A stretch of DNA of 64,000 nucleotides. Source: Bacteroidota bacterium. Its GTDB lineage: Bacteria; Bacteroidota; Bacteroidia; B-17B0; Aurantibacillaceae. The notes under the pieces were generated by a model. The model saw only the letters and a program-made list of their open reading frames with translations, was not told the DNA's origin and did no database searches. Where the stretch lies: NCBI GenBank assembly GCA_947450025.1, contig CANFTW010000002.1, positions 124,001 to 188,000 on the forward strand, written 5' to 3'. The position numbers were made by a program, and so were the translations under genes. The number at the start of each line of letters is the position of its first letter. Within the stretch, counting starts at the first letter, position 1. Below, one piece after another: positions 1 to 12,227 of the stretch.

Positions 1-664
1 TATCAGACATGCTTGATAGCGGAATCACCACTGAGCTCGCATACATTAATAATTGAACGCCAAAACCCACCAAAAAAGTTAAATCACGATACTTAGTGGT
101 TAAGGATGATATTAAAATGCCAAACCCAAATCCTAGGCCAGCCATCATCACTACCAAAATTGGTACTACCCACATTAACTCCCAATGCGGCATCACTTGA
201 TGATGGGATGTAAAAAAATACATCCAAATACCGATAAAAATTAAAAACTGTATCCCTAATTTAATAAGGTTTGATACTAATACCGATAGGGGAATAATTA
301 ATCGTGGAAAATACACCTTGCCAAAAACACCAGCATTGGCAATAAAGGTATTAGAGGTTTTGGTTAAACAATCCGAAAAATAAGACCACAAGGTAATCCC
401 AGCCATATAAAATAAAATCGGGGGATTATCATCGGTACTAATTTTAGCAACACTCCCAAAAATAAACGTAAAAGTAAGCGCTGTTAACACTGGTTGAATT
501 AAAAACCACAAGGGACCTAAAATCGTTTGTTTGTAAACGGATACAAAATCACGTCGTACTAACAAAAGTAACAAATCTCTATAGCGCCAAAGAGCTGCTA
601 AATCAAGATCGTACCATTTATTTTTGGGTTTAATAATTAAATCCCAATGTTCTTCAGATTGCAT
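1..664 (-). CDS. ABC-2 type polysaccharide export permease (Wzm-like), C-terminus beyond window
   Basis: Open frame on minus strand from ATG at 664 (MQSEEHWDLIIKPKNKWYDLDLAALWRYRDLLLLLVRRDFVSVYKQTILGPLWFLIQPVLTALTFT...), characteristic Wzm N-terminus; truncated by window edge. Confidence 0.85.
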   Translation of the reverse strand, partial: MQSEEHWDLIIKPKNKWYDLDLAALWRYRDLLLLLVRRDFVSVYKQTILGPLWFLIQPVLTALTFTFIFGSVAKISTDDNPPILFYMAGITLWSYFSDCLTKTSNTFIANAGVFGKVYFPRLIIPLSVLVSNLIKLGIQFLIFIGIWMYFFTSHHQVMPHWELMWVVPILVVMMAGLGFGFGILISSLTTKYRDLTFLVGFGVQLLMYASSVVIPLSSMSD

Positions 665-800
665 ATTGTTTTTTAATTCAATGATGTATTTATAGCTTCG
701 CCACCTTAGTCACAAGTAACTTAGTGGGTTATATTCAGTTTCAGTCATCGACTCCGTTCAGGCTAACACATTTCGACAAACTCAATGTGCTTACCTAAAT

Positions 801-1331
801 TTATTTACTCCACAACAACAAAGGATTAATACCAGGTTCTATAATGTTCCTGATATCAAACTCGGTTTCTGTATAATGAATGTAATGTATGCTTTTGTGT
901 ATTTTCTTTTCCGCCTTTGCAATTAATTCTTTTAAAAAGACTTCGTTAATATCTCCTACCAAAACCAAATCAATCACCTCACTATCTTGTCCTTTTGATA
1001 GATTGCCGACCAAGTATACTTCTTTTAAATCCCCCATTCGTTGCAGCACATCATCAATCACATGATCTAAACCCACTAATTTTAAAACAATACTATTAAT
1101 ATCCTTAAACAAAGGGTGAGAGGTGTTTACTGTAAATAATTTTTTATTGGCTTGATAATACGATTTTAAAAAACCAGCTTTCTCAAAGCGGTTTAATTCG
1201 ATACGAATAGAATTGGTTGATTCGCCAAACTCCTCTTCTAAACCTCGCAAATAAGCGATGGTATGACTGTTTATAAAAAATTTAAACAGCAACTTAATGC
1301 GCGTTTTGGATGAAATAAGCGTTTCAATCAT
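801..1331 (-). CDS. Winged-helix regulator with nucleotidyltransferase-like C-terminal region, EPS-locus associated
   Basis: N-terminal HTH-like segment; C-terminal 'VYLVGNLSKGQDSEVIDLVLVGD' resembles a degenerate NTase motif; sits in polysaccharide locus. Confidence 0.55.
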   Translation of the reverse strand: MIETLISSKTRIKLLFKFFINSHTIAYLRGLEEEFGESTNSIRIELNRFEKAGFLKSYYQANKKLFTVNTSHPLFKDINSIVLKLVGLDHVIDDVLQRMGDLKEVYLVGNLSKGQDSEVIDLVLVGDINEVFLKELIAKAEKKIHKSIHYIHYTETEFDIRNIIEPGINPLLLWSK

Positions 1332-1447
1332 GGTTGAGTAACAAATTTACTCAATTGTATGATTAAAACAAATAGGTTAAAGATTTTTTAAATCATAACC
1401 CCACAAAATGAATCTGAAAATGTTATATTAAAACAAATATTAAAAGC

Positions 1448-2440
1448 TTATTTTAAATGATTTTTATACCAAGCAATCGTTTGTTCGATACCAGATTGTA
1501 AATCCACTAAGGGTTCATAACCTAAAAGATCTTTCGCTTTATGAATGTTCGCTAAACTATTTTTAATATCCCCTTTTCGTTCAGGCTTATAATCTGGCAT
1601 GACATCGCTTTGTAAAGAATCTTTGATGAGGTGAAACAACTGATTTAAACTCGTTGAGGCGCCATAAGCCACATTATATACTTGATTAATCGCTTGTGGA
1701 TTTTGAGTAGAATAGGCTAAGACATTAGCATATACCACATTATCAATAAACGTAAAATCTCGGCTAGTGGAACCGTCGCCAAAGATAGATGGAACCTGGT
1801 TTTGAAGAACATTAGAAATAAAAATCGGAATCACAGCCGCATAAGCCCCATGAGGATTTTGTTTAGGTCCATAAACGTTAAAATAGCGTAAACCTATAAT
1901 TTCCATATCATAGGACTTTGCAAAAACATCGGCATACAATTCATCTGTTTTTTTAGACACCGCATAGGGCGATAAGAGCTTACCTGTTACAGATTCTTGT
2001 TTCTCAGAACTTGGATCATCTCCATACACCGATGAAGAAGAGGCATACATCACCCGTTTGACCTGGTTTTGTTTGGCAGCAAATAACACATTCACAAAGC
2101 CAGATACATTGGCTTGATTAGTAGCCATAGGATCTTGCATACTTCTTGAAACAGAACCTAAAGCCGCATTATGAAAAATGCCATCTACACCTTCCGCAGC
2201 ATTAAGACAGGTTTGAAAATCAGTGATATCTCCCTGAATAAATAAAAACTTTTCATTTGATTCATGCTCCTGAAGATTGGCTTTAAAGCCAGTGGATAAG
2301 TTATCTAATACCCGCACTTGTTTAGCGCCACCGGCCAATAAATAGGCAACTAAATGAGAACCGATAAAACCCGCTCCTCCTGTTACTAAAAACTGTTTGC
2401 CTTTAATGGCATCGATTTTTGGAATCATTGTATGTATCAT
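1448..2440 (-). CDS. NAD-dependent epimerase/dehydratase (UDP-sugar 4-epimerase, SDR)
   Basis: GGAGFIGSHL Rossmann motif, SSSSVYGD and YAVSK catalytic motif, GLRYFNVYGP. Confidence 0.9.
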   Translation of the reverse strand: MIHTMIPKIDAIKGKQFLVTGGAGFIGSHLVAYLLAGGAKQVRVLDNLSTGFKANLQEHESNEKFLFIQGDITDFQTCLNAAEGVDGIFHNAALGSVSRSMQDPMATNQANVSGFVNVLFAAKQNQVKRVMYASSSSVYGDDPSSEKQESVTGKLLSPYAVSKKTDELYADVFAKSYDMEIIGLRYFNVYGPKQNPHGAYAAVIPIFISNVLQNQVPSIFGDGSTSRDFTFIDNVVYANVLAYSTQNPQAINQVYNVAYGASTSLNQLFHLIKDSLQSDVMPDYKPERKGDIKNSLANIHKAKDLLGYEPLVDLQSGIEQTIAWYKNHLK

Positions 2441-2448
2441 CTATTTAT

Positions 2449-2946
2449 TTAATTAGGTATTTGTTTTAAAATTTGTGGTGGCAACTTGATGGTGATATTT
2501 TGGTGTAAACTCTCTAATTGTATTTGAACATAATGCATATTTTTGAACTCCACAACCGTTCCTTTTAATCCCTTTAAATGCCCTTGCGTAATTTCAACAC
2601 TACTATGTAGTTTCAAATCCCCTGACTCTTGAGAAACGTCGTAACCACTTAATTCAATTGATTTTAAAATATCAATTTCTGAGGCTCTCACCTTTGCTTC
2701 GACACCATTAAATTTAATATATGAAAATACTCCCGGACAATGTAATACTTTTTCTTTATCCTCCTCCAAAATATGAACAAATACGTATCCACTCAGCATA
2801 GGAAACTCCACCCATTTTTTTCGATCACTCCATTGCTGCAATTTTTTAACCACTGGCGAATAGGCTTGCAAGTTTTGATCTTGTAGTTTTTGAACCACTT
2901 TTTTTTCGTGTTTCACATTCACATATACCGCATACCAACTTAACAT
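2449..2946 (-). CDS. UpxY/NusG-family transcription antiterminator
   Basis: NusG N-terminal 'WYAVYVNVKHEKKV', 'FPMLSGYVFV', KOW-like 'ITQGHLKGLKGTVVEF'. Confidence 0.85.
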   Translation of the reverse strand: MLSWYAVYVNVKHEKKVVQKLQDQNLQAYSPVVKKLQQWSDRKKWVEFPMLSGYVFVHILEEDKEKVLHCPGVFSYIKFNGVEAKVRASEIDILKSIELSGYDVSQESGDLKLHSSVEITQGHLKGLKGTVVEFKNMHYVQIQLESLHQNITIKLPPQILKQIPN

Positions 2947-2978
2947 GATTTCAAATAATAAACTCTTTGGTAAATGCC

Positions 2979-5333
2979 TTATGATTTTTTATTGCCGTAA
3001 CCATAACCGTAACCGTAGCCATAACCGTAGCCATATCGCGAATAGTAATAGCGACTTCGTTTCCGCTTTACCCCATTTAACACTAAATACACATGTTCAA
3101 TGGAATTATCGTGGGCTAATTTATGAAACTGATTTAAGATTGATTTATTAGCATATTTAGTATTCAATACCAATAAATTAATATCGGCATATTGCATTAA
3201 ATAAATAGCATCTGATAACAAGCCTAAAGGAGGTGTATCAATTAACACATAGTCGAAGTTTTCTTTTGCATAAACCATTAGTTCCTTCAATTTATCCGAC
3301 AAGACAATATCGGAAGGATTAGGTGCAATTGGTCCAGATAAAATGGTATATAAATTGGATACCACGGTTGGCTTAACAATTTCATCTAAGGTATTTTGAC
3401 CAACCATAAAAGTACTAATACCAATATCGGCATTCATTTGCAAAGCCTTTTGAATTCGCGGTTTGTGTAAATCCAATTCTAACATCACCACTTTTTTGCC
3501 ACTTTTAGCTAAAATAGCTGCTAAATTAATGGCGGTGAACGTTTTTCCTTCACCTGGGGCATTAGACGTAACTAAAATGGTTTTTTTAGGAGAATTGAGT
3601 ATCACATATTGTAAATTAGTTCGCAAGGTTCTAAATCCTTCCGCAATATATGATGTTGGACTATCCTCTACAATAAAGCCTAATTGTGATACACCTTTTT
3701 GAAATGGTAAATCACCAATAATCGGCAAACTCGTATTTTCTTTGAGCTCCTCCACATTTTGAATAGTGGTAAAAAATAAAGTGCGCAGGACAATGATTAA
3801 AATTGAAATAGCTAAACCAATGGCCATAGCTGTTGACATAATTTTTTTCTTATCCGTACTCACTACCCCCTTATTTCTTGGGCTATCAATCACCTTAATT
3901 TCGGGAACAATTGAGGCTTTGGCAATTTTAGTGTTAGCGCGTTGTTGTAATAAGAAATTATAAAGTTCTTCATTAACCGCCACTTTCCTTGAAATATTGA
4001 GCATTTCGCGTTGTTTTGGAGGAATGGACTTAATATCAGAAACATAACTCGATATTTCATTATTAACATTTTCAATAATTTTATAAGTGGCATTACGGGC
4101 ATTATTTAGATAGACTAAAATATTTTGCTTTAGTTTTTTAATTTTTTGCCTAATTTCAATGACATTGGGATTGATTTCTTTTGAATAACTTAATTGACTA
4201 TTCACCTGCATTTGAAGTGTATATAAATCCTGAACTGATTTTGCCATAAACTCATCATCACCCACTAAGTAAATATTAGGAGGTAAAAACTCAGGATCTT
4301 TGTCTTCAATAATGTATTTTTCTAAATCATTAATCGCATCAACTTTTAATTTTAAACTTGATTTTTGTCCGTCAAAGGAGGCTAATTTTTTAAAAAAATC
4401 TTCTTTCTCCCAGCCAAGATCTAAAATATTATGCTGCTGTTTAAAATTCTGCATTGTATCTTCAATTTCATTTAAAGATAAACTCACATCACTTAATTGC
4501 TTATCAATATAATTTATAGTCCTCTCATTAATATCAAATCGAGAATTTAAAGATTTATTAATGTATACCTTGGATAAAGTATCTAAAATTAAAATGGCAC
4601 GTTCAGGGATAATGTCATCCATAGTTAATACCAGTACATTCGTGTAATCAGGGTTTTCTACCTTCAACACACTTTTAAATTGCCCCACTAAATTATCTAT
4701 CTGATGAATTTTTATTTGATAATTTAAAGCAGATAAAGGAGCCGCCATATTTCTTAAAAATCCAGCTTCACGATCAATCAAGATATTGAAATCAAGGTTT
4801 ACCAATTCTTGATTAAATTTACCAACTTTCGCCACCTCTGCTCCACCACTATTATAGCGCAATTCATACTCTTGATAATTTAAAATCTTAAACCCTATAG
4901 GTTGTTCATATAATTTATCATTAATGTATTTGACTGACACATTAAAAGGAGAGCCGGTAAATTGCTCGGTTGTTCGCACCCTCCCCACAATAAAATAAGA
5001 TACTTGCAAACGGTTTTTTAATTTATCAACTGTTTCCTTCATAATATCGTAAGATGTTATGATGCGGATTTCGTTAGAATTATCAACAAAAGACCGAGAG
5101 GCGCTGTAAAAACCATCATCCGTAATTAAACTCCCCTTATAATAAGCATCATTAGATTTTAATAATTCAATAGAGGCTTGATAGACATTTTCTATTTTAT
5201 AAGAATAGAAATAACCTAAAAGATAGAAAATTGGGATAATAAAAATAGGAATAAACCAGTTTTTTGAAATGATTCTCCAAATAACCTTAAAGTCATTAAT
5301 TTGAATAGGCGAATTATTTTTTTTAGGTTCCAC
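2979..5333 (-). CDS. Wzc-like polysaccharide co-polymerase / tyrosine autokinase (BY-kinase)
   Basis: Wzz-type N-terminus, Walker A 'TSNAPGEGKTFTAINLA', 'VVMLELDLHKPR', 'DYVLIDTPPLG', C-terminal Tyr-rich tail. Confidence 0.9.
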   Translation of the reverse strand: MEPKKNNSPIQINDFKVIWRIISKNWFIPIFIIPIFYLLGYFYSYKIENVYQASIELLKSNDAYYKGSLITDDGFYSASRSFVDNSNEIRIITSYDIMKETVDKLKNRLQVSYFIVGRVRTTEQFTGSPFNVSVKYINDKLYEQPIGFKILNYQEYELRYNSGGAEVAKVGKFNQELVNLDFNILIDREAGFLRNMAAPLSALNYQIKIHQIDNLVGQFKSVLKVENPDYTNVLVLTMDDIIPERAILILDTLSKVYINKSLNSRFDINERTINYIDKQLSDVSLSLNEIEDTMQNFKQQHNILDLGWEKEDFFKKLASFDGQKSSLKLKVDAINDLEKYIIEDKDPEFLPPNIYLVGDDEFMAKSVQDLYTLQMQVNSQLSYSKEINPNVIEIRQKIKKLKQNILVYLNNARNATYKIIENVNNEISSYVSDIKSIPPKQREMLNISRKVAVNEELYNFLLQQRANTKIAKASIVPEIKVIDSPRNKGVVSTDKKKIMSTAMAIGLAISILIIVLRTLFFTTIQNVEELKENTSLPIIGDLPFQKGVSQLGFIVEDSPTSYIAEGFRTLRTNLQYVILNSPKKTILVTSNAPGEGKTFTAINLAAILAKSGKKVVMLELDLHKPRIQKALQMNADIGISTFMVGQNTLDEIVKPTVVSNLYTILSGPIAPNPSDIVLSDKLKELMVYAKENFDYVLIDTPPLGLLSDAIYLMQYADINLLVLNTKYANKSILNQFHKLAHDNSIEHVYLVLNGVKRKRSRYYYSRYGYGYGYGYGYGYGNKKS
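2994..3035 (-). repeat. 6-bp-periodic coding repeat encoding (Gly-Tyr)7
   Basis: gccgtaaccataaccgtaaccgtagccataaccgtagccata reads on minus strand as YGYGYGYGYGYGYG. Confidence 0.9.
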
Positions 5334-5422
5334 TAGTTTAGATTCAAAAACAAATATAATTATTTAGCCGCAAAATAAAGTATTATTCTATGATAAATAT
5401 AGGTTATTTAGCTTTTATGTTT

Positions 5423-5430
5423 TATATTTG
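5423..5430 (+). promoter_or_regulatory. Candidate Bacteroidota -7 element (TATATTTG, matches TAnnTTTG)
   Basis: Exact match to TAnnTTTG in the wzc / PID-CTERM intergenic region; no clear -33 identified. Confidence 0.3.
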
Positions 5431-5551
5431 TCTACCTAAACAAGCTATACATCGCTAGATTTAATTAATGTTAAATCCTTTGTTGTAAAGTTTGTTTTAA
5501 GATAGTAAACGCATTTTTAAAGTCAATATAACCTTGCCGTTTTTTAAGCAA

Positions 5552-5767
5552 ATGAAAACAAAAATACTCTTAGTCATATTCTTTATACTTTGTTTTTGCG
5601 CTGATTTTGTATATGCAGGCGCACCACCTCCCCACCCTCCAACACCGGGATGTTGGCCTCCTCCTTGTATACCAATCGATGGAGGAATTTCCTTATTAAT
5701 TGCTGCAGGTGCCATTTATGGTGGTAAGAAATTATATAATCACAAAAAAGAAAAACATACCTTATAA
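5552..5767 (+). CDS. PID-CTERM sorting-signal micro-protein (exosortase substrate)
   Basis: MKTKILLVIFFILCFCADFVYAGAPPPHPPTPGCWPPPCIPIDGGISLLIAAGAIYGGKKLYNHKKEKHTL: signal peptide, short Pro-rich segment, PIDGG motif, TM helix, basic tail. ATG at 5552 preferred over the upstream TTG at 5534. Confidence 0.8.
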   Translation: MKTKILLVIFFILCFCADFVYAGAPPPHPPTPGCWPPPCIPIDGGISLLIAAGAIYGGKKLYNHKKEKHTL

Positions 5768-5774
5768 TTTATCT

Positions 5775-5801
5775 AACCCTCCATTATTTGGAGGGTTTTT
5801 T
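5775..5801 (+). terminator. Intrinsic terminator-like hairpin immediately before xrtX-like start codon
   Basis: AACCCTCC-ATTATTT-GGAGGGTT followed by T run; ATG at 5804. Confidence 0.75.
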
Positions 5802-5803
5802 GT

Positions 5804-6340
5804 ATGCTAAAACACCTTAAAAAAAATACATTTCAAGGATTCATTATAAAAGCAAGCGTTTTATACGGAATCTGTTATTTTTTGTACGAATTTATCATTA
5901 AACGCTACACGAAAGCTGATCAATTATTTATCAGAGAAATAATTAATTTTTGCCGTTGGTTAATCGAGCAGTTTGGTTATAAAACCTTTGCTAGTCGCGA
6001 TGTGAATGACATACAAGTATTTGGGATCGATGGCTCCAACGGTGTTTGGATTGGTGGGCCTTGTAACGGTATTACGCTCATGTTTTTATTTGCCATTTTT
6101 GTAATAGCCTATCCTGGAAATCTAAAAAACAAATTATGGTACATTCCCTTGGGTATTATCATAGTGCATACCATTAATATTATTCGCATTATCGCCCTAG
6201 CATTTATTGCCTATTACGACTACCATTATTTAGATTTTAATCACACCTATACCTTTACATTTTTAGCTTATATTGCCGTATTTGGATTATGGATGCTTTG
6301 GGTTAATAAATTTTCAACCTATCAACGCATTGAAAAATAG
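5804..6340 (+). CDS. Exosortase family protein (XrtX-like)
   Basis: Multi-TM protein with ordered C/R/H residues: 'GPCNGI', 'NIIRII', 'FNHTYTF'; adjacent to PID-CTERM substrate. Confidence 0.8.
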   Translation: MLKHLKKNTFQGFIIKASVLYGICYFLYEFIIKRYTKADQLFIREIINFCRWLIEQFGYKTFASRDVNDIQVFGIDGSNGVWIGGPCNGITLMFLFAIFVIAYPGNLKNKLWYIPLGIIIVHTINIIRIIALAFIAYYDYHYLDFNHTYTFTFLAYIAVFGLWMLWVNKFSTYQRIEK

Positions 6341-6806
6341 TTTTATTTATATCCTCTTTATATCCCTGTTTGCTTTACTTGGTTTTAGCAGAGAGTTTCT
6401 GTTCGTGAACATTAATACTCAACTGTTTCATTTATATTACCACAACTCTGATTACAGCCTGCCTAATAGATTATCTTTTTTAAGTGGGATTGATTATCTG
6501 ACACTGTACTACTTGAAATATCCACTCACCGTGTTATATTTTATGGCCTATTTAGGCACGAGTTATTATGCGGCGAAAGCAATATGTGCCATTAAAAAAA
6601 ATGCGCGATGGGTAGTATATATTTACGCATTATTATTAGTTTTGTCTAGTATTTCAATGGCATACAATTATGTAATCAATCATCAATTAAGCGGGGATGA
6701 ATATACGTTTAGCCGCTGGCTGATGGGTATTGCCCAATCGCCATTGGTTGCATTTTTTGTCATTGCTTCAAATAAGCTCTTTAATAACATTCAAACTGAA
6801 CAATAA
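6330..6806 (+). CDS. Exosortase-associated multi-pass membrane protein
   Basis: Hydrophobic multi-TM ORF overlapping exosortase end; in-frame TTG at 6330 is a more plausible start than the track's 6273. Confidence 0.6.
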   Translation: MKNSFIYILFISLFALLGFSREFLFVNINTQLFHLYYHNSDYSLPNRLSFLSGIDYLTLYYLKYPLTVLYFMAYLGTSYYAAKAICAIKKNARWVVYIYALLLVLSSISMAYNYVINHQLSGDEYTFSRWLMGIAQSPLVAFFVIASNKLFNNIQTEQ

Positions 6807-6818
6807 AACATTATTACT

Positions 6819-8093
6819 ATGAAAAAAGACACCGCCATTTTTAAACTTATCAAAGAAGAAAAAGACCGTCAAACTCGCGGGATAGAACTTATTGCTAGTG
6901 AAAACTACGTCAGCGACCAAGTGATGAAAGCAATGGGAAGCGTTTTAACGAATAAATATGCTGAAGGATTGCCTTCTAAACGTTATTATGGCGGTTGTGA
7001 AGTGGTAGATAAAGTTGAGCAATTGGCTATTGATAGAGCGAAAGAATTATTTGGTGCAGCTTGGGTAAATGTTCAGCCTCACTCAGGAGCACAAGCTAAT
7101 GCAGCAGTGATGTTGGCATGCTTAAAACCAGGTGATACCATTTTAGGATTTGATTTATCTCATGGAGGACATTTAACGCATGGTTCTCCTGTGAATTTTT
7201 CAGGAAAATTATACCGTGCTACATTTTACGGCGTAGAAGAAAAAACTGGTCGAGTGAATTATAATAAAGTAGAAGAAACGGCTAAAAAAGAAAAACCGAA
7301 AATGATTATCTGTGGTGCGTCTGCGTATTCTCGTGATTGGGATTATGCTCGCTTACGTAAAATTGCAGACAGCGTAGGAGCCTTATTATTAGCCGATATT
7401 TCTCATCCATCTGGATTAATTGCAAAAGGTATTTTGAATGATCCCCTACCTCACTGTCATATTGTAACTACGACAACTCACAAAACATTACGTGGACCAA
7501 GAGGAGGAATGATTATGATGGGTCAAGATTTTGAAAATCCAATGGGCGAAAAAACACCTAAGGGAGAATTAAAAATGATGAGTACATGTTTAGATATGGG
7601 CGTATTTCCAGGAACACAAGGCGGACCATTAGAACATGTTATTGCCGCAAAAGCAGTTGCTTATGGAGAATGCCTAAGTGATGAATATATGCACTATTGC
7701 GTTCAAGTAATTAAAAATGCTCAAACGATGGCTAAAGCCCTTGTTGAAAAAGGATACAAAATTATTTCAGGTGGAACTGATAACCACTGTATGTTAATTG
7801 ATTTACGTAGTAAAAAATTAACTGGTAAAGAGGCTGAAAAAGCATTAGGCGAAGCAGATATTACCGTTAATAAAAACATGGTGCCATTTGATGACAAGTC
7901 ACCATTCGTGACTTCAGGAATTCGTATTGGTACTCCTGCAATTACTAGCCGCGGTCTAAAAGAAAAAGATTGCTTAAAAGTGGTTGACTTTATTGACGCG
8001 GCTTTAAAAAACAAAGACAATCCAAAGGAATTAGCTAAGTTAAAATCAAAAATTAATACCATGATGAGTAAATATCCGTTGTTTAAGGATTAA
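6819..8093 (+). CDS. glyA: Serine hydroxymethyltransferase
   Basis: Strong family similarity: '[13 protein letters not shown]', '[16 protein letters not shown]', '[16 protein letters not shown]'. Confidence 0.97.
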
Positions 8094-8109
8094 TACCCAA
8101 CAATAAAAT

Positions 8110-8149
8110 CCATAAAAAAAGCTCACTAATTAGCGAGCTTTTTTTATGG
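8110..8149. terminator. Bidirectional intrinsic terminator between convergent genes
   Basis: Perfect 15-bp arms CCATAAAAAAAGCTC / GAGCTTTTTTTATGG. Confidence 0.9.
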
Positions 8150-8166
8150 AACCTACTTTTGATTTT

Positions 8167-11139
8167 TTAATATCCAAAAATATCTTTTAAGGTTAAATAT
8201 TTTACAGTACCATATTTCTCTAAGGTTTTGATATCTAATAAATCTTTTTTACCTAAAACTAAAATAGATGCTGGTTTGTTTTTGATTTTTTCATCTTGAA
8301 ATTTTTTCACATCTTCAAACGTCATCGTTGCTACTTTAGAAAAAACATCTTTTCTAATATCTGTTTTTAATCCAAATTTTTCGGCATTTAAATAATCAAA
8401 TAAAATATCTGCTTTATTAATGCGCTCGGTTTTAATGTTTTGGATAATCGCCTCTTTTGCAGCGCCAAAAGAAATTTCAGACTTTGGAACATTATTTAAT
8501 AAGTTCATCATACCAGCCATTGCTTCAGGCAATTTATCGGCTTGTGAACCGATATAAGAAAAATTATAAAAGGAATTTCTCGGATTTTTAGGTCCTCTAT
8601 AAATAGAATAACAAGAATAAGCTAATGCTTTAGATTCTCTCAAATCTTGAAACACCACCGAACTCATGCCTCCTCCAAAATATTCATTATACATATTAAT
8701 TAAAGGAATATTTTTCGCATCATATTTATCACCTTCCGTTAAAATAACAATTTCAGCTTGCTTCATGTCGTAATCTATAACGTAAACCGTATTATTAAAC
8801 ACTTGAGGTGTAAAATTCATTTCAGCTGGCACTGGTTTTAAGTTTGAAGCAGATATATTGTGAACGTGATTTAATACTTCTTTAACATCACCAATCATTT
8901 TTGGACCATAATATAAAATTTTGTGCTGATACGTTAATAATGATTGCACTAAATTGGCAATTTGTGAAGGCTGTAATTTATTTAAATCTTCTTCAGATAA
9001 AATATTAGTAGCAGGGTTAGAAGCACCATACTTAGCATAGCTCACTAACATTTTTTGAAGAATAGTTCGCTTATCTTGTTTAGCATCGCTGCGCTTTTTT
9101 AATATATCTGACACTAAATTTTTAAGTGTTTCTTCATCAATTTTTGGATCAGCAAATAAACTCTCAAACAAGCGTGTTGCTTTTTCAAAATTTTCATTTA
9201 AACCCGATAAACTCACCCATGTTTGATCGTCAGAATTAAACACATTAAATGAACATCCTAATTTGTAAAATTCTTGCTGAACCTCAGCAGGTGTCATTTT
9301 ACTCGTTCCTAAATAAGGGATATATTCAATTGCAATTGGCAACATCTTATCATTATTAGTTCCCATATCAAAGGCATAATACAAATCAAATAATTGGTTC
9401 TCGGTATTTTGACTGTAGATAACTGGTATGTTTCCATTCATACTCGTTTTCATCACATCTTTATCGTAATCAATAAATTTAGGTTGTATATCAGCTGCTT
9501 TAGCAGTTAAGATAGATTTCACAAAAGGTGACTGATCATCTCTATTCACTTCAACAGGTGTAATTTGAGGCTTTTCAACCTTTTGAATATTTTTATCTTC
9601 ACCAATACGTTTGTAGGCAACCACGTAGTTATTGGCATTGTAGTTAGCTTTCACAAAATCAATCACTTCTTGTTTTGTAATTTTAGATAAACGTTCAATA
9701 GAATTGACTGCAAATTGCCATTTCGTGTCGTTTACAAATGCATCTACAAAAGCCATCGCACGAGATTGATTATTCTCTAGCTCCTTGGTTTTTTGAAACT
9801 TCATATCTGTAATAACCGCATTCATTAACCAATCAGGGAATTCACCTTTTTTTAATAATTCTAATTGACCTAATAATAAAGCTTCTGCCTCTTCTAAAGA
9901 TTGTCCTTCTTTAGGTTCTGCAAATAAAATGTGAGTAGAATAATCTTTTAAGACATAGGCAAAACTTCCGCTACCTAAAACTTTTTGTTCTTGATTTAAA
10001 TTCAAGTCTAATAAGCCTGCTCTACCATTACTTAATAATAAATTAATTAAGGTAATCATATCCGCATCTTTACTTCCCGCGCCAGAAAAACGCCAAGCCA
10101 TTGCTAAATTAGCGGCATCTGGTCCTATAATTTCTTTGACAACTTTTTGAGTAATCGGTTCTTCATTTTCGAATTTATAGGCTGCAACAGGCTTTGACGG
10201 CATGGATCCGAAATTCTTTTCAATTAATTTAATCGTTGCATCTGGATCAAAATCTCCGCTTAAACAAATTGCCATATTATTAGGCACATAGTTCGCGTTA
10301 AAGTATTTCATAATTTCCTTCATCGAAGGATTTTTTAAATGGTCAATGGTTCCAATAGTAGTTTGTGTTCCGTAAGTGTGTTTTTTAAACAAGCCTTCAA
10401 ATACAGCTTCCCATAATTTGCTATTATCATTATCTAAACCTCTATTTTTTTCTTCATACACGGCTTCTAATTCGGTATGAAATAAACGCAATACTGGTTT
10501 ACGATATCTTTCTGATTCAATCTTTAACCAATTTTCTAATTGATTAGAAGGAATATCATTCACATAAACGGTTTGATCAAACGAAGTGAATGCATTGGTA
10601 CCTTGTCCACCAATACCTGCTAACATTTTATCATACTCATTCGCAATCGCATATTTAGCAGCTACTCCAGAGATACTATCAATTTGATGGTATATTTTTT
10701 TTCTTTGTCCATCATCCTTTGTTTGACGATACGTTTCATACAAGTTTTCGATTTTAGTAATCTCAACTGATTCTTTAGAGAAATCCTTAGTACCAAATTT
10801 ATCTGTTCCTTTAAACACCATGTGCTCTAAATAATGAGCTAATCCTGTAGCTGTAGAAGGGTCATTTTTACTACCAGCTTTCACTGCAATATATGTTTGA
10901 ATACGAGGAGCGTTTTTATAAACACTCATATATACTTTTAAACCATTTTTTAAGGTATAAATTCTTGCTTTAAATGGATCATTTAAGGCGTACTCAAAAT
11001 TAGTTGAAGCCACCTTAGAACCTTCTTTTAAAGTAGAAGAAGATGTTGCTGGTTTTGCAGTAGCTGTTTTAGTTTGAGCAATTGTATTAATCGCTGCAAA
11101 AGCTAATGCTATGGATACTATTTTTTTTAATTGAATCAT
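8167..11139 (-). CDS. M16 family zinc metallopeptidase (two-domain, secreted)
   Basis: Inverse zinc motif 'HYLEHMVFKG', signal peptide, duplicated M16 architecture. Confidence 0.92.
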   Translation of the reverse strand: MIQLKKIVSIALAFAAINTIAQTKTATAKPATSSSTLKEGSKVASTNFEYALNDPFKARIYTLKNGLKVYMSVYKNAPRIQTYIAVKAGSKNDPSTATGLAHYLEHMVFKGTDKFGTKDFSKESVEITKIENLYETYRQTKDDGQRKKIYHQIDSISGVAAKYAIANEYDKMLAGIGGQGTNAFTSFDQTVYVNDIPSNQLENWLKIESERYRKPVLRLFHTELEAVYEEKNRGLDNDNSKLWEAVFEGLFKKHTYGTQTTIGTIDHLKNPSMKEIMKYFNANYVPNNMAICLSGDFDPDATIKLIEKNFGSMPSKPVAAYKFENEEPITQKVVKEIIGPDAANLAMAWRFSGAGSKDADMITLINLLLSNGRAGLLDLNLNQEQKVLGSGSFAYVLKDYSTHILFAEPKEGQSLEEAEALLLGQLELLKKGEFPDWLMNAVITDMKFQKTKELENNQSRAMAFVDAFVNDTKWQFAVNSIERLSKITKQEVIDFVKANYNANNYVVAYKRIGEDKNIQKVEKPQITPVEVNRDDQSPFVKSILTAKAADIQPKFIDYDKDVMKTSMNGNIPVIYSQNTENQLFDLYYAFDMGTNNDKMLPIAIEYIPYLGTSKMTPAEVQQEFYKLGCSFNVFNSDDQTWVSLSGLNENFEKATRLFESLFADPKIDEETLKNLVSDILKKRSDAKQDKRTILQKMLVSYAKYGASNPATNILSEEDLNKLQPSQIANLVQSLLTYQHKILYYGPKMIGDVKEVLNHVHNISASNLKPVPAEMNFTPQVFNNTVYVIDYDMKQAEIVILTEGDKYDAKNIPLINMYNEYFGGGMSSVVFQDLRESKALAYSCYSIYRGPKNPRNSFYNFSYIGSQADKLPEAMAGMMNLLNNVPKSEISFGAAKEAIIQNIKTERINKADILFDYLNAEKFGLKTDIRKDVFSKVATMTFEDVKKFQDEKIKNKPASILVLGKKDLLDIKTLEKYGTVKYLTLKDIFGY

Positions 11140-11270
11140 ATGTGATTTTTTAGGATACTAAGATATATAAAATATGCTGTTTTAGGATGTAAGGAACTAA
11201 ATTATTTAGTAATAATAATGGTTTGTGGTTTTAGTTAATAATTATATATTTATAGCTAAACAAAAAAATT

Positions 11271-12227
11271 ATGGAAAATACATCTTTTAAAAAATTAATG
11301 AAATTCAATGGAGATCATGGCCAATTAGTTGGGCTTCGTATCATCAATAACCTATTAACAGCAATCACCCTTGGCATCTATTATCCTTGGGCAAGAGCAG
11401 CTTACTTACAATACATTTATGGTGAAACAGAATACATGGGAACTCGTTTTGTATTTCATGGCACTGGGAAAGAAATGTTTATTGGATTTATTAAAGCAAT
11501 TGGAATTATTGTTGGCTTGTATATTTTCATGCTTATCTGTTTTTTCTCTCAGGTGGCTGTTATTGCCATATTGGGTGTCATCGTTTTTTATATTGCCATC
11601 CTCGTCATCATTCCTATAGCCATTCATGGCTCAAACAAATACCGTTTATCTAGAACATCTTGGAGAGGTATCCACTTTGGCTATAGAGGTATATTAGGAG
11701 AATTTCTAAAAATGTATTTAGTAGAAATTTTATTAACTGCTGTAACCTTTGGTATCTATAGTTCATGGATGCATGTTAAAGTCAATAAATACATTAAAAG
11801 TCACATTCGTTTTGGAAATATTGAATTTTCATTTGAAGGAGAAGGGACAGATTTATTTTTAATCAAATTAAAAGGAGCTTTTTTAACCATTCTGACTTTA
11901 GGAATTTATTCCTTTTGGTATTATAAAGAATTAGTTGCTTTTGAGTTAAACCATACTAAGATCATTCAGAATGGAAAACAAATCAATATTCGTTCTTCCA
12001 TTACAGCAGGCCAAATTTTTAGCCTACTCATTACAAATTATTTAATAATTATTTTCACATTAGGTATCGGAACAGGTATTGCAATCAATCGAGTGATGCG
12101 CACAGCGATTGAAAATATTGAGTTTGACACAGAAATAGATCCTAATACTTTAGTACAAACAGAAGACGAATACAAAAATGCAGCTGGGGATGATTTAGCA
12201 GATATGTTAGATATTTCTATCATCTAA
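11271..12227 (+). CDS. DUF898/YjgN-family membrane protein
   Basis: Repeated 'TLGIYYPWARAAY', 'TFGIYSSWMHVKVNKYIKSH', 'TLGIYSFWYYKEL' segments. Confidence 0.8.
   Translation: MENTSFKKLMKFNGDHGQLVGLRIINNLLTAITLGIYYPWARAAYLQYIYGETEYMGTRFVFHGTGKEMFIGFIKAIGIIVGLYIFMLICFFSQVAVIAILGVIVFYIAILVIIPIAIHGSNKYRLSRTSWRGIHFGYRGILGEFLKMYLVEILLTAVTFGIYSSWMHVKVNKYIKSHIRFGNIEFSFEGEGTDLFLIKLKGAFLTILTLGIYSFWYYKELVAFELNHTKIIQNGKQINIRSSITAGQIFSLLITNYLIIIFTLGIGTGIAINRVMRTAIENIEFDTEIDPNTLVQTEDEYKNAAGDDLADMLDISII

Follow-up and report, generated by a model that had tools for sequence, protein, structure and literature searches.

A tiny PID-CTERM protein with a near-invariant CWPPPC motif, paired with a single exosortase X and divergent from wzc in uncultured Bacteroidota

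Exosortases and archaeosortases cut tripartite C-terminal sorting signals by means of a cysteine, and may transfer the new C-terminus to another molecule. To our knowledge one of these enzymes, exosortase F (XrtF), has no known substrates. In F. johnsoniae both XrtF (TIGR04128, Fjoh_1448) and its partner protein Fjoh_1449 are required for biofilm formation and colonisation (PMC10936215). In Nostoc, an exosortase encoded in a Wzx/Wzy locus is required for adhesion to polysaccharide (PMC12188702). For the archaeosortase ArtA, processing together with lipid attachment is the model (PMC7157517); this lipid-attachment model derives from archaeosortase and not from bacterial exosortases, for which no acceptor is named in the literature cited here. 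In the MYXO-CTERM system an invariant cysteine is needed for cleavage, and lipidation has been proposed (PMC11980579). The locus described here belongs beside the XrtX/PID-CTERM system, whose cargo, exosortase and partner families already carry NCBIfam models (NF046080, NF046081 and NF046082, respectively); a search of the open-access literature found no paper on XrtX or PID-CTERM.

The locus lies in a window (the whole stretch of DNA that was analysed) of 64,000 nucleotides, and its features are as follows.

2449..2946, minus strand: UpxY-family antiterminator of the polysaccharide cluster (NF033644, 124.9 bits, cut-off 100)
2979..5333, minus strand: Wzc-type polysaccharide chain-length protein / tyrosine autokinase (NCBIfam and Pfam matches; conserved divergent neighbour)
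5334..5551, no strand: divergent intergenic region, common to wzc (minus) and cargo (plus) (promoter-element scan)
5351-5358, minus strand: TATATTTG, wzc side, 25 nt before wzc
5423-5430, plus strand: TATATTTG, within the divergent intergenic region
5552..5767, plus strand: mini-cargo precursor, 71 aa (PID_CTERM profile match; conserved relatives; the sole one in the genome)
5651..5668, plus strand: CWPPPC codons, TGTTGGCCTCCTCCTTGT, near-invariant motif of the predicted exported peptide
5775..5803, plus strand: terminator-like hairpin AACCCTCC-ATTATTT-GGAGGGTT with a T run (intrinsic type), in the cargo-xrtX gap (scan)
5804..6340, plus strand: xrtX, exosortase X, 178 aa (NF046081 match; putative catalytic C87, R128 and H147)
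6330..6806, plus strand: divergent XrtX-associated membrane protein (TTG start; 11-base overlap with xrtX)

The 71-aa open reading frame is a PID-CTERM protein, scoring 46.3 bits against NF046080 PID_CTERM (cut-off 26). Its translation begins with an apparent signal peptide, MKTKILLVIFFILCFCADFVYA (about residues 1-22; by eye a lysine, a hydrophobic core and an end VYA/G), which is followed by the 18 residues GAPPPHPPTPGCWPPPCI and then by PIDGGISLLIAAGAIYGGKKLYNHKKEKHTL, where PIDGG, a short hydrophobic stretch and a basic tail make up the PID-CTERM sorting signal. A preliminary description of this DNA had proposed this architecture for the cargo, and beyond it an exosortase with ordered Cys, Arg and His residues and an overlapping membrane protein, all adjacent to a Wzc/UpxY polysaccharide locus; each of these elements was found, the signal peptide as an apparent one. 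It had also suggested comparison with the exosortase and PID-CTERM profiles, and enzyme and cargo both score above cut-off.

The xrtX product reached 176.5 bits against NF046081 exosortase X (cut-off 170), 55.7 against the TIGR04178 exo_archaeo signature (cut-off 23) and 27.3 against Pfam Exosortase_EpsH (cut-off 25.7). C87, R128 and H147 occur in that order and are invariant across 17 sequences. The enzyme resembles exosortase F in being a Bacteroidota exosortase with an adjoining partner protein, but at 84.7 bits it stays below the TIGR04128 cut-off of 90. It lies near the lower edge of the NF046081 family, whose cut-off is passed in 62 of the 88 genomes of the window's taxonomic family, which are also all the sampled genomes of its order. 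A tree built from 65 XrtX proteins places those with CW..C cargos in a single well-supported group (97/85), apart from canonical XrtX. One XrtX contig labelled Candidatus Saccharibacteria (L124) falls inside the Bacteroidota XrtX clade and is probably mis-binned. The predicted structure of XrtX is of moderate confidence (pLDDT 80, pTM 0.69), and no solved relatives were found by sequence or by fold.

The third gene scored 25 bits against NF046082 XrtX-associated membrane protein, for which the cut-off is 75, and its equivalents in other family members gave 19-33 bits or no match; therefore it is taken here as a positional, weakly similar counterpart and is not classed as a member. It is present in nearly all family loci whose stretch extends that far. 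Its predicted structure is helical (pLDDT 92), and a fold comparison of the model with the PDB gave no match. The locus is thus like the XrtX/PID-CTERM system in that enzyme and cargo are above their cut-offs with a weak partner match in the expected place, and unlike the canonical form of that system in its below-cut-off partner, in the separate clade of its XrtX and in its cargo, which is single, adjacent and bears CWPPPC, whereas canonical cargos are dispersed and lack cysteine. In most XrtX loci a glyA gene (serine hydroxymethyltransferase, by eye from sequence; 6819-8093, plus strand, in the window) stands 3' of the partner; the linkage of glyA to xrtX is conserved, for a reason that is not obvious.

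A cargo this tiny, which the preliminary description had stressed, is not exceptional: 128 of the 150 PID-CTERM matches listed for the phylum fall in open frames no longer than 120 aa (median 80), so that PID-CTERM proteins generally are small. A rare large cargo was also seen, as one match (G167:C1:2167132-2167203, minus strand) within a 995-aa open frame. What is special here is the near-invariant peptide, its single copy and its coupling to wzc. Typical cargos of other families, for example QPGLPSAPSQAPIDGG, are without cysteine and in many genomes there are several of them.

A search of the window's genome found one PID-CTERM protein and one exosortase, as expected of the minimal system with one tiny cargo that had been proposed. 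Across the 88 family genomes a PID-CTERM match was present in 73, exactly one each, and three more carry the cargo as P[IA]DNG variants; an XrtX match was present in 81, and was strong in 80. The arrangement is looser in genus g182, where the cargo of three genomes (G462, G464 and G465) is on a different contig from xrtX and where three members kept XrtX with no cargo found; most of the relatives are incomplete metagenome assemblies, so that such absences are weak evidence. Among 398 genomes sampled across the phylum, an XrtX-like exosortase is present in 118, and these include every one of the 63 that carry PID-CTERM; the chance of such an overlap is about 1e-40, uncorrected for relatedness. 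The arrangement is seen again in dozens of genomes and so is not due to chance; across a large group of uncultured Bacteroidota, one XrtX seems to serve a single substrate in each genome.

The 80 loci closest by XrtX were then compared; they come from named genomes, nearly all of them metagenome assemblies and nearly all titled Bacteroidota, and as they were picked by likeness to the window's XrtX they do not gauge the extent of the motif. The cargo gene is directly 5' of xrtX in 74 of these (70 by pattern and four by eye), and in the other six neither pattern nor eye found a cargo adjoining xrtX. All 74 cargos have the same tiny design with two cysteines each, and 71 contain CWPPPC exactly, the remaining three having CWPPSAC, CWEPGPC and CFPPPC. 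In the alignment there is almost no variation between the start of CWPPPC and the end of PIDGG except at one I/V position, and CWPPPC stands one residue before the PID motif at a fixed spacing; the Pro/Gly stretch ahead of it varies in both length and content. Among the 67 genes counted, all four third bases are found at every proline codon of the motif and both cysteine codons are used. Synonymous change is therefore free, so that the conservation lies in the protein and not in the DNA, and selection acts on the peptide. In 68 of the 88 family genomes there is one copy, and no more, of the DNA pattern for CWPPPC-x-P[IV]D..G; its backwards control gave zero. CWPPPC as a common motif of the phylum was rejected, as the other matches to the CWPPPC DNA pattern in the phylum sample are chance frames without the PID signal.

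The cargo is also tied to the polysaccharide locus. In most loci wzc, often UpxY, a regulator and an epimerase run one way and cargo, xrtX, partner and glyA the other, the gap between wzc and cargo being mostly 80-120 bases. In the window's genome the cluster extends leftward beyond the window, with glycosyltransferases, sugar epimerases and an ABC transporter ATPase. The Bacteroidota-type element TAnnTTTG, which we take to be the -7 element of Bacteroidota promoters, is present on the wzc side of 46 of 56 loci, where 4.5 matches would be expected, and in most cases precedes the start by 24-27 bases. Its cargo-side counterpart, TAnnTTT[AG], was seen in 55 of 67 loci as against 17.3 expected; the window's own cargo has none within 52 nt. 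Elsewhere in the phylum PID-CTERM genes are dispersed and multi-copy, so that the coupling to wzc is not general. The membership of the cargo in a conserved, near-invariant CWPPPC family and the divergent promoter region that it has in common with wzc both go beyond the preliminary description. That a near-invariant CWPPPC peptide is kept under selection across many genera, and has its promoter region in common with wzc, suggests that bacterial surfaces have a peptide component not described before.

Our main reading, to which we give a probability of roughly one half, is that XrtX is a one-enzyme, one-substrate system in which the anchor of the cargo is removed and a peptide of about 18 residues is passed to an envelope acceptor, plausibly lipid- or polysaccharide-linked. 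Export, cleavage and transfer are inferred from the wider enzyme family, by analogy with ArtA, XrtF and the Nostoc exosortase. Against this reading stand the looser pairing in genus g182 and the six XrtX loci with no adjoining cargo. The cargo would be exported by Sec and its signal peptide then removed; the hydrophobic C-terminal stretch would keep it anchored in the inner membrane, the basic tail lying on the cytoplasmic side. XrtX and its overlapping partner would cut at or near PIDGG by way of Cys87 (with Arg128 and His147), removing the anchor, and XrtX would hand the Pro-rich peptide to the acceptor. Because the coupling to wzc is conserved, that acceptor would most plausibly be a lipid- or polysaccharide-linked molecule made by the adjacent cluster, and the product a surface glycan or glycolipid capped with the peptide. 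In this reading the constant motif CWPPPC might be the functional end (a disulfide loop, a crosslink or a docking site), with the variable Pro/Gly stretch serving as a spacer; the identity of the acceptor and the role of the cysteine pair are speculative. We hold only tentatively, as rather doubtful, the narrower proposal that the XrtX clade transfers the 18-residue CWPPPC peptide onto the polysaccharide or lipid carrier of the Wzc cluster to make a peptide-capped surface glycan. If that is true, an exosortase would be making a peptide-glycan conjugate instead of anchoring a protein.

The locus is like archaeosortase A/PGF-CTERM of Haloferax volcanii in its related enzyme family and tripartite C-terminal signal (PMC7157517), but the archaeal cargos are complete surface proteins, the S-layer glycoprotein among them, and here the predicted product is a peptide of about 18 residues. 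With PEP-CTERM/EpsH (XrtA) it has the exopolysaccharide-gene association in common (PMC1569441, PMC12188702); that system differs in having many varied cargos per genome and a PEP motif in place of PID. Since each genome has a single enzyme with a single partner and a single substrate, and the predicted peptide is small enough for mass spectrometry or synthesis, the acceptor question is testable, which makes this an unusually small and clean case for learning what exosortases attach their cargo to.

It is possible, though we think it unlikely, that CWPPPC[IV]PIDGG is an extended sorting signal in which the cysteine beside the cut site carries a lipid or some other modification, the rest being a spacer. 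As the distance from CWPPPC to PIDGG is fixed at one residue, recognition or modification of such an extended signal is favoured by the spacing, and the invariant cysteine of MYXO-CTERM is a precedent (PMC11980579); that system is like the present one in having an invariant cysteine at the sorting motif, but myxosortase is an unrelated CPBP-family protease with dozens of cargos, whereas the enzyme paired with the window's cargo is an exosortase. On the other hand, canonical PID-CTERM cargos have no cysteine, so that it is not required across the whole family, the Trp and three Pro residues are as constant as the cysteines, and the signal is found once per genome, so that nothing else is sorted by it. 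That CWPPPC is missing from canonical cargos and occurs once per genome speaks for its being the working end of the peptide.

XrtX could also act in maturation, as a protease that frees a soluble signal peptide (a pheromone) or another secreted peptide. The predicted product is small, with a possible Cys loop, and the region between cargo and xrtX bears on the same point: a strict scan found the terminator-like hairpin in 15 of the 19 loci from the window's own clade, with two more seen by eye, and in 0 of 56 loci of other lineages, where cargo and xrtX nearly touch. The stems differ in sequence and their pairing is kept. This conserved hairpin suggests that in the window's clade the cargo transcript can end before xrtX and the peptide is probably made in excess over the enzyme, which would fit release. 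Cell-cell signals usually diversify, whereas this motif is constant across many genera; furthermore no receptor gene recurs beside the cargo in XrtX loci, and the cargo is coupled to wzc. Release is thus improbable. In the relatives that lack the terminator (L080-L117), AAGGC...GCCTT inverted repeats often surround the xrtX start; an RNA hairpin across that start was considered for them and rejected (synonymous shuffles gave a mean z of -0.49 and no locus had p<=0.01).

Quite as unlikely is that the 71-aa protein stays uncleaved and serves XrtX, the partner or Wzc as a small membrane subunit or regulator. Its tiny size, its place beside xrtX and divergent from wzc and its occurrence once per genome would all fit, but its PID-CTERM score is well above cut-off, it has an apparent signal peptide as well as a basic tail, and the presence of PID-CTERM tracks that of XrtX across the phylum. 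Finally, the idea that the cargo decayed from a longer PID-CTERM protein, as its very short length might suggest, was rejected and is to be given almost no weight: the same size and motif are kept under purifying selection in 74 cargos, and the genome search found no full-length PID-CTERM protein elsewhere, the circumstance in which the preliminary description would have taken this for a decayed copy.

An Rfam search of positions 1-12000 of the window gave no match. The window also encodes a 176-aa winged-helix-like protein (801-1331, minus strand) with a nucleotidyltransferase-like stretch, YLVGNLSKGQDSEVIDLVLVGD; it has no NCBIfam match and a weak PaaX match. It adjoins UpxY and wzc in many XrtX loci and may have a regulatory role in the polysaccharide cluster.
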